NCBI RefSeq assembly: GCF_017744135.1
Contig: NZ_JAGHQU010000007.1
Coordinates: 1 to 64,000, forward strand
Length of the DNA stretch: 64,000 nt
Reading direction: 5' to 3'
Origin: Endozoicomonas sp. G2_2
Lineage (GTDB): Bacteria; Pseudomonadota; Gammaproteobacteria; Nevskiales; Salinisphaeraceae
Shown: positions 34,751 to 36,615 of the stretch, one piece after another
Layout of the letters: each line of letters begins with the position of its first letter
Position numbering within the stretch: the first letter of the stretch is position 1
The notes under the pieces: generated by a model
Seen by the model: the letters and a program-made list of their open reading frames with translations, nothing else
Told to the model about the DNA's origin: nothing
Database searches by the model: none
Program-made: the position numbers and the translations under genes

Positions 34751-35593
34751 ATGTTCGAAGAACGAGTTCAAAATCTTGAGCAACTAGAAAATGCATTGTT
34801 GAAGCAGCAAGCGAAACGGGAGTCTTTAGCTAGAGACTATGGTGCGCCCGGACCTCTTCTATTCCGAGGGCAGGGTAATGCGGCTTGGCCGTTATCTACC
34901 ACGCTTGAGCGCTATACGAGGCGACAATTTTCGCTTGACGAATATCTCTCTACGCTCGAGAAAATTCAGCCTGTATTGCAGGCGTATACGGGCGAAAGGT
35001 GGGAGGTTCAGCGAGACGAGTTCAAAAAAGAAGTCAGGGTAGATCAACCTCTATCTGAACAGCTAGGCCTGCTCCGCGCGTATCCGCTAATGGTTCATGC
35101 TAGGCATCACGGGTTTCCTTCGCCCTTAATGGATTCGACCGCTAGTCCTTATGTAGCAATGTATTTCGCTTTCGCTAATGCGAATCCGAGCTATCCGATA
35201 TCCGTATACGCTTTTCAAGAAAGTCCGACCGGCGAGAAATACGATAGGAGTAGTGTTCAGCCTCATACATTTGGAAAGAATTCGAGAATTGAAACACTAA
35301 AGCCGAGTGTCGCCTCCCATAAACGTCATTTTATGCAACAAGCGCGGTATACCGTTTGTTTACGCGGGCATGGGCAAAATATGTGGTTCGCAGGACACGA
35401 TGAATTCCTACAGCAATCCGAACCGTACGATGAAATTATTACGCGGTTCGTTTGCCCGAGCGATGTAACAAACCAGGCAATGCAACGCCTTAATCAAATG
35501 AACATCAATGCCTATACACTTTTTGGCAACGAAGAGTCACTATTTGAAACCTTAGCCTTTGACGCGATACGTAATGCGGCAAATTCCTCATGA
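34751..35593 (+). CDS. FRG domain-containing protein
   Basis: A 280-residue FRG-domain protein. The name-giving motif is FRGQ at residues 38-41 within LLFRGQGNAAWPL, and the second block HARHHGFPSPLMDSTASPYVAMYFA spans about 116-140 with His119-His120-Gly and Asp128. The rest continues as alpha/beta sequence. The function of the domain is not settled; family members are often in accessory or defence-type islands. Codon use is AT-richer than all neighbours, signalling horizontal transfer. GGGGATGGG precedes the ATG. Confidence 0.85.
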   Translation: MFEERVQNLEQLENALLKQQAKRESLARDYGAPGPLLFRGQGNAAWPLSTTLERYTRRQFSLDEYLSTLEKIQPVLQAYTGERWEVQRDEFKKEVRVDQPLSEQLGLLRAYPLMVHARHHGFPSPLMDSTASPYVAMYFAFANANPSYPISVYAFQESPTGEKYDRSSVQPHTFGKNSRIETLKPSVASHKRHFMQQARYTVCLRGHGQNMWFAGHDEFLQQSEPYDEIITRFVCPSDVTNQAMQRLNQMNINAYTLFGNEESLFETLAFDAIRNAANSS

Positions 35594-35741
35594 CATCTTG
35601 CGCTTCGAGGTTTAATCAACTCTCTAGGGTTGTAATCGCGTCAGTCCAGATATTGCATCGGAGTCCTAAAGGGGGCAGGCACGAATAAGAGGCTTTGGTT
35701 GGCCAGTTTCGAATCAACCATGCAGCCGAAGTCGACTTGGG

Positions 35742-36345
35742 GTTTCGCGCTGCTGCGCGAGTGTCTTTTATTTGCTTGTCCAAATAAAAGTCACCAAAAC
35801 AAAAGACACCCTGTCTTGCGTCGGCGCTTTGCGCCGATGCCCTGCGCGGCTCCGGCCGCAAGCGGGCCAGCCGGAAACTCGCCGCGCTGCGCGCGACTCA
35901 GACATCCGGCTGTCTTATCCGCTTGCGGCCTCCACTGCTCGGCGCTGCGCCCAAGGGACCCAATACAGGCAAGCTCGCTGTCGCTCGCTCAAGGTCGCGC
36001 TTTTTGTGCCGAATTAGGCGTGCGCCTAATTCGACGAGAACGGAGTCGGTGGGTGCGTTCTGGTTCGGTAGGGGCTTTGGTTTCGGTAGTTGGCCGGGCG
36101 TCTGTATTTGGGCCCCGTTGCGCGGCGACGGAGACGCGCAGCGGTGAAGGGTTTCCGGCGCACTGCGCCGGTGCGGCAAGGTGTTTGAGCATCGCCAAAG
36201 CGATGCGAGTTTTTGCCGCATCCCTTCGCCGCGAGCATCGGAGTGCACCGGCGCGAAGCGTCGGCGCTGTGTTCGGGTGTCTTTTTCCTTTGCTTACTTT
36301 CTTTTGGACAAGCAAAAGAAAGTGAGTCGCACAGCAGTGCGAAAC
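35742..36345. repeat. Structured element with about 100-base inverted arms and covarying hairpins
   Basis: The left arm (35742-35840) and the reverse complement of the right arm (36244-36345) align over their whole length. Each arm has three hairpins in the same order. H1: TCGCGC-TGCT-GCGCGA (35745-35760) against TCGCAC-TGCT-GTGCGA. H2: CTTTTATTTG-CTTGTC-CAAATAAAAG (35765-35790) against an 11-bp stem with the same loop. H3: TCGGCGC-TTT-GCGCCGA (35821-35837) against a 7-bp stem with one wobble. Differences in H1 and H2 stems are compensatory while loops are identical. The roughly 400-base centre carries another nested stem-loop. Confidence 0.75.
35854..35930. repeat. Nested stem-loop inside the structured element
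   Basis: GGCCGCAAGCGG (35854-35865) pairs with CCGCTTGCGGCC (35919-35930), a perfect 12-bp outer stem. Inside it AGCCGGA (35869-35875) pairs with TCCGGCT (35905-35911), and the inner GC-rich loop (around 35882-35895) can fold again. There is no T-run, so it is not a terminator. Confidence 0.7.
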
Positions 36346-36417
36346 AAAAGGTCCGAAGAACTCGTAGGTGGACCAAATACTCGCGACCTAAAACCGCCGA
36401 GTTTTAAGCAGTAACTC

Positions 36418-36615
36418 TCAGGCCGCGATCCCTTCAAGCTGTACCCGATCGATATCGGTCCGCTTGCTCGCATGTTCGAACGTAATGGCGCAAACATTCC
36501 CGGCAGCATCGACATCGAGAATAGTGTTCTCGTCGAGATCCTTCGACTCCGCGATATCGCCAGTCCGGAATTCGATGTAGAGCGTATCGGTGTCCTCGAA
36601 ATACTGTACTTTCAT
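36418..36615 (-). CDS. DUF2283 family protein (putative antitoxin)
   Basis: A 65-residue protein with the DUF2283 pattern: an initial YFEDTDTLYIEF strand pair, then GDIAESKDLDENTILDVDAAGNVCAITFEHAS. The start at 36615 is chosen because the family begins there and the ATG overlaps the upstream stop (ATGA). DUF2283 proteins are often small partners in two-gene modules, and a role as antitoxin to the preceding gene is inferred from the overlap and size. Confidence 0.72.
   Translation of the reverse strand: MKVQYFEDTDTLYIEFRTGDIAESKDLDENTILDVDAAGNVCAITFEHASKRTDIDRVQLEGIAA

Follow-up and report, generated by a model that had tools for sequence, protein, structure and literature searches.

Bacterial sequences that can form intrastrand triple helices have been known since 2000, without it being settled whether cells select for this structure. 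The PIT, BoxC and TM-ECO sequences (Hoyne and Maher 2000, 2002; Holder et al. 2015, PMC4666352) carry three tracts in Y-R-R order with short loops on a single strand, a layout assigned to class II, or to class IV when the complementary strand is read, and occur in many intergenic copies in proteobacteria, sometimes as inverted pairs. BoxC is short and GC-rich, with no reported correlation with gene orientation; the GC-rich PIT/BoxC triplex is reported to have neither promoter nor terminator activity, and the 2015 study describes triplex formation in vivo as only transient or minor (PMC4666352). A second group, the REP, REPIN and BIME sequences (PMC3733652), consists of dispersed palindromic units, often in inverted pairs with G-T-tolerant stems, that lie downstream of genes and between convergent genes and vary in presence between relatives; REP/REPIN units span 20–40 bp, carry GTAG or CGTC tags and are associated with TnpA-REP (RAYT).

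Here we analyze an intergenic element in a window of 64,000 nucleotides (the whole stretch of DNA under study) that shares features with both groups. We assign a probability of roughly two in three to the view that it is a dispersed non-coding repeat of REPIN/BIME-like character, with arms under selection for folding into an intrastrand triple helix. With PIT/BoxC it has in common the Y-R-R order on a single strand, the short loops, the class II/IV assignment of the two strands and the many intergenic proteobacterial copies, some in inverted pairs. In all families the three tracts lie on one strand as Py1-loop-Pu1-4 nt-Pu2 and so fall within the sequence definition of ITxF classes II/IV (three tracts of 6–15 nt, Y-R-R or complement, loops of 1–6 nt, at most one mismatch; PMC4666352). 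Unlike BoxC, the arms are A/T-rich and therefore outside the BoxC/TM-ECO consensus CCCTCNCCC-N3-6-GGGNGAGGG-N3-GGGNGAGGG, belong to a two-arm unit of 500–600 nt with strongly convergent placement, and show three-strand covariation with G.TA-type triads. The REP-like properties are dispersed palindromic units, frequent inverted pairing, G-T-tolerant stems, positions 3′ of genes and between convergent genes, and presence or absence between relatives. Unlike REP/REPIN units, however, the arms are about 110 nt long with hairpins H1, a triplex-type H2 and H3, and have no tag (GTAG is absent from the arms, and the CGTC of the left H3 sits inside the stem) and no linked RAYT, since two Y1-type transposase (Y1_Tnp) genes lie elsewhere in the genome with no arms near either. 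Homopurine mirror symmetry is shared with H-DNA mirror repeats; unlike these, the element encodes a covarying pyrimidine partner on the same strand, and at its T-A steps the mirror symmetry gives way to precisely a C, with G on the opposite strand. Like MITEs the element is multi-copy and non-coding with terminal inverted repeats, but neither a target-site duplication nor a partner transposon was found.

Organization of the element and its hairpins

The features of the window copy, with its flanking genes, are as follows.

34751–35593, + strand: left flanking gene, FRG-domain protein, pointing towards the element (PF08867, E 2e-17)
35707–36372, no strand: whole dispersed element, core 35742–36345 plus weakly conserved outer ends
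35745–35760, + strand: left H1 hairpin, TCGCGC-TGCT-GCGCGA
35765–35774, + strand: left arm Py1, CTTTTATTTG; its − strand complement would serve as purine strand R in the proposed triple helix
35775–35780, + strand: left H2 loop, CTTGTC
35781–35790, + strand: left arm Pu1, CAAATAAAAG, pairing with Py1 to give H2
35795–35804, + strand: left arm Pu2, CAAAACAAAA, putative third strand, supported by the three-strand code
35818–35840, + strand: left H3 hairpin, GCGTCGGCGC-TTT-GCGCCGATGC, three covarying pairs in the helix in the copy alignment
35854–35930, + strand: large interior hairpin, GGCCGCAAGCGG...CCGCTTGCGGCC, with the alternative pair GAAAGAGG...CTCTTTC in other copies
35960–36110, no strand: variable middle, mostly missing in several other Salinisphaera species, which have ~500-nt units
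36248–36264, + strand: right H3 hairpin, CCGGCGC-GAA-GCGTCGG, one G-T wobble
36283–36292, + strand: right arm putative third strand Y3, TTTTCCTTTG, reverse complement of Pu2
36297–36306, + strand: right arm Y1, CTTTCTTTTG
36313–36322, + strand: right arm R, CAAAAGAAAG, partner of Y1
36327–36342, + strand: right H1 hairpin, TCGCAC-AGCA-GTGCGA
36418–36612, − strand: right flanking gene, DUF2283 protein, pointing towards the element (PF10049, E 9e-18)

When copies are compared, conservation extends some 45 nt beyond the left TTTCGC and some 30 nt beyond the right TTTCGC before it drops, so that the outer ends, TTTGAATCAAC-type on the left and ACTCGTGAGT-type on the right, add roughly 35 nt per side to the stretch 35742–36345 delimited in a previous sequence-only reading, which captured the core and left these conserved ends outside. 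The ACTCGTGAGT palindrome was considered as a separate repeat and rejected, as it occurs only at element ends. A coding element was likewise rejected, because the open frames that span it match no Pfam family and the copies differ by indels whose lengths are not multiples of three. The element has no Rfam match at the gathering score, and among the papers listed by a literature search with its sequence none concerned bacterial repeats. The FRG-domain gene directly beside it has low GC and atypical codon use, is not called by the hexamer model, and is probably foreign.

The arms at 35742–35804 and 36283–36345 form an inverted repeat of 63 nt, 79% complementary and ungapped, and the inverted match extends to about 115 nt by BLAST, in agreement with the alignment of about 100 bases noted previously. 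The compensatory changes reported between the arms are borne out. In H1 a G-C pair becomes A-T when the left hairpin is compared with the reverse complement of the right one (TCGCAC-TGCT-GTGCGA), and in H2 two pairs change, A-T to T-A and T-A to C-G, between CTTTTATTTG-CTTGTC-CAAATAAAAG and CTTTCTTTTG-CTTGTC-CAAAAGAAAG with all positions paired; H3 keeps its pairing, with a single G-T wobble in the right copy as read on the + strand. The accompanying proposal of invariant loops holds only locally. The H1 loop TGCT is the same in the two arms of the window but is TGNN over 27 distinct forms, and the H2 loop is CTTGYC within the family of the window whereas more than 15 loop sequences surround the same stem outside it. 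The invariant part of the arms is the three tracts, not the loops.

Both strands are predicted to be highly structured, with an RNA folding energy of −339.8 kcal/mol for the + strand against −254 ± 5.6 in shuffles (z −15.3) and a z of −14.4 for the − strand. In a set of 25 distinct arms drawn from many genera, pairing of the H2 stem is 100%; the covariation score is 0.407 (0.112 in shuffles), and there are 38 double-change cells (8.9 in shuffles). In the copy alignment, stems switch as modules: CTTTTATTTG/CAAATAAAAG, CTTTCTTTTG/CAAAAGAAAG and CTTCTCTTTG/CAAAGAGAAG replace one another, as do GTCGGCGC/GCGCCGAT and GCCGATGC/GCATCGGT, and GCAAGCGG/CCGCTTGC and GAAAGAGG/CTCTTTC, and the entire stem of the left H3 swaps among alternative paired sequences. 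Further copies and families are many and broken pairs are rare rather than as frequent as preserved ones, in support of the earlier proposal that selection acts on RNA or single-stranded DNA structure.

Natural pairs include CTTTCTATTG/CAAAGACAAG and CTTTCTCTTG/CAAAGAGAAG. In the genomes G327, G420 and G217 (f163) the two arms of an element tend to differ in type, CTTTCTCTTG with loop CTTGCC and CTTTCTATTG with loop CTTGTC, as if avoiding identity. In three loci (L169 in G074, L163 in G190, L151 in G414) H2 is interrupted right after GTCCAAAG by another, small structured repeat of about 60–90 nt, which is thus nested in the arm, with hairpins of its own and, in two of the three, CCATGG-type palindromes.

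Copies, distribution and turnover

BLAST of the element against its own genome (Salinisphaera; 3.73 Mb, 33 contigs) finds about 30 copies, mostly full length, at 74–87% identity. Of 61 related genomes 37 match, including all 13 other Salinisphaera genomes tested, and matches extend to 12 of 20 genera of the order. With a family-specific pattern every exact match among GTDB contigs falls in Salinisphaera, including S. shabanensis, S. halophila and S. hydrothermalis, which is the ground for placing the genome of the window in this genus; in other species of the genus the unit is about 500 nt, lacks most of the middle and can be arranged in tandem. The TTTGCTTGTCCAAA repeats that the sequence-only reading mentioned for other gammaproteobacteria were recovered in a search that included a reversed-pattern control. 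Pseudoalteromonas has the module with loop CTTGCC, and the Burkholderia cepacia complex, Pasteurella multocida and Aeromonas caviae have it with other loops. It has no match in 5,426 E. coli genomes, and no genome in a phylum sample outside the class matches the stricter pattern. Viral spread was considered and rejected, as phage records contain no match to the element and viral contigs with the module are few, one under the strict pattern and four under the loop-free pattern.

Flanks of three neighboring copies were sought in seven relatives. Sites A and C are empty in several species, with the flanks about 20–140 nt apart and an ordinary bidirectional terminator between them that, in the own genome, persists next to the inserted element. 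At other sites several species have a copy, and at the L039 site many Salinisphaera species do. Element copies are thus inserted or lost, as the empty orthologous sites in relatives show. Copies within the genome are more alike (best 89–95% identity) than a copy at the same site in another species (84–87%), which points to ongoing turnover or gene conversion. The longest word shared by the flanks is 5.9 against 6.3 expected, and no target-site duplication is seen.

One copy (L017, 251405–252057 at the end of contig C30) is truncated at about 530 bases, where it runs into sequence that begins like the open frame of an insertion sequence. In three genomes (G003, G056, G205) numerous arms sit no further than about 200 bases from a contig end, so that assemblies break at near-identical copies and the actual number of copies is underestimated.

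A putative third strand that covaries with H2

Read inward, every arm has the order Py1-loop-Pu1-4 nt-Pu2-(G)RCACCC, in which Pu2 is a mirror of Pu1 and not a direct copy. In the left arm CAAAACAAAA mirrors Pu1 with a C facing the T-A step, which on the − strand gives G.TA. A parallel code relating Py1 to Pu2 (T>A, C>G, A>C, G>G) accounts for 236 of 245 positions over 49 distinct family/arm combinations, compared with 156.5 (maximum 183) in shuffles; none of 5000 type-level permutations reached 236, although these counts are not independent because the arm types share ancestry. By triad the tallies are T>A 166/168, C>G 52/56, A>C 14/15, G>G 4/6 and G>A 2/6, and the mutual information between Py1 and Pu2 is highest along the parallel diagonal. 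The code was set from the first arm types, and for stem types first met in later searches 107 of 110 positions fit. Search patterns fix part of the stem, and the loop-free search frees the decisive third-strand bases. With the loop and three third-strand bases free, 21 of 293 genomes in 19 genera match; among the matches listed, the mirror bases AAG occur in 62 of 62 and the direct-repeat bases AGA in none, the loop varies freely in sequence with a length of 3 to 6 nt, and a reversed control gave no matches. A competing antiparallel Py1:Pu2 duplex, considered as a switch, is formed at 115 of 245 positions, below the 150.6 of shuffles, and was rejected. Against the triplex reading, a few arms carry a degenerate third strand; in G205 (f151) these natural third-strand losses, of the CCCGGATCGAAGG type, make up three of at least 15 arms.

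On the strand reading outward the putative triads become T.AT, C.GC, G.TA and C.CG or T.CG (C.CG being the commoner, 4 versus 2), which is close to the pyrimidine-motif triple-helix code of T.AT, C.GC, T.CG and G.TA (Griffin and Dervan 1989; a 1992 PNAS paper whose title names these triads; both cited in PMC10609763). A purine-motif reading of the inward strand would require C opposite T-A. Stem mismatches on the inward strand are mostly A-C rather than G-T (72 versus 6 in Salinisphaera and 13 versus 1 elsewhere; much of the excess comes from one column, without which 24 versus 7 remain), and these A-C mismatches are G-T or G-U wobbles on the outward strand. Because the triads match the pyrimidine-motif code and the mismatches become wobbles, the fold is most likely on the outward strand. 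Against a triplex stand the excess of C.CG over T.CG and the requirement of C.GC triads for protonated cytosine near neutral pH. Intrastrand triplexes are possible in RNA for the pyrimidine motif and not for the purine motif (PMC4666352), and so RNA and single-stranded DNA are both possible as the folding molecule.

Placement between convergent genes

Gene context was assigned with a hexamer gene caller trained on 21 stretches of the own genome. Among 28 callable copies, 20 lie between convergent, seven between tandem and one between divergent gene pairs, whereas of the background gene pairs in the same stretches 27 of 159 are convergent (Fisher p 2e-8), or 9 of 94 when the gap is at least 60 (p 4e-10). 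The window copy, which the hexamer model does not call, is also convergent, between the FRG and DUF2283 genes. In families G171, G141 and G184, for which placement is rougher because open reading frames were picked by length, 13 of 20 are convergent and none divergent. Where the flanking genes are in tandem, copies occur without orientation preference with respect to them.

A role as a terminator was considered and rejected. No hairpin followed directly by a U-run, as in an intrinsic terminator, is present inside any of 29 copies, H1 and H2 included, and 9 of 16 convergent copies have an ordinary terminator-like hairpin at their site as well, which makes the element dispensable for termination at these places. 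These neighboring terminators, together with the empty sites, argue against an essential terminator. The placement, the third strand that covaries with H2 and the evidence for insertion were all absent from the sequence-only reading.

Discussion

The covariation suggests that the three tracts form a triple helix. We propose that each arm encodes a GC hairpin (H1) and the H2 hairpin, whose purine strand would take a third strand from the same molecule to give an intrastrand triple helix, most likely 5′-Y3-Y1-loop-R on the strand leaving the element at each arm. The folded arms may, less securely, act as a REP-like signal for propagation of the repeat or for single-strand recognition. The element would settle between convergent gene ends because insertion is tolerated or favored there and, once in place, the arm met on leaving it may hinder read-through into the opposing gene.

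The placement raises the question of whether the host instead keeps the element as a cis-acting bidirectional barrier that ends or blocks converging transcripts, with the exit arm doing the work and spread being secondary. The strong convergent bias in unrelated families, the outward-strand wobble bias, which would place a functional fold in read-through transcripts leaving the element, and the occupancy of sites such as L039 in many Salinisphaera species all agree with this. We nevertheless regard it as doubtful, since element-free relatives have a plain terminator at sites A and C that the own genome retains next to the element, terminator-like hairpins flank over half of the convergent copies scored, H1 and H2 have no following U-run, and an estimated few percent only of convergent pairs have a copy. 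The fold scores of about −15 on both strands, the many covarying interior helices and the occurrence of G-T rather than A-C in several of these on the + strand would suit a family of large structured non-coding RNA genes of about 500–600 nt expressed from many loci. That the inverted arms are symmetric, that single arms occur, that the interior is poorly conserved between families while the arms persist, and that tandem-context copies are indifferent to gene orientation make such a family unlikely, and Rfam has no match to it.

A mirror third tract could also serve as a protein-binding or alternative-hairpin sequence rather than a triplex strand, and in the window copy Py1 can indeed pair with Pu2 at 12 of 13 positions. 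Across arm types, however, antiparallel pairing falls below shuffles, the third strand follows its own arm through eleven stem types, and A>C is expected from G.TA and from no duplex; we think this improbable. A MITE, in the sense of a non-autonomous DDE-transposon relative mobilized through its terminal inverted repeats, would account for the inverted ends, the multiple copies and the empty sites in relatives. We consider it the least probable of these readings, given the missing target-site duplication, ends that are not sharply defined, and a non-exhaustive search that found no related transposase; it also leaves the convergent bias and the three-strand constraint unexplained.

A REPIN/BIME-like repeat with triplex-forming arms is the reading we prefer. 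It is a tentative possibility that these arms represent a natural triple helix with a four-letter triad code including G.TA, widespread in proteobacteria and acting as a two-sided gate at convergent genes, in which the triplex of the exit arm would stop read-through once its strand is exposed or transcribed. Coordinated change of three strands under a published code is evidence of the kind that compensatory pairs once supplied in the case of hairpins, and it makes the question of selection for the triplex testable with short oligonucleotides. The convergent placement ties the structure to a definite setting, that of converging transcription.
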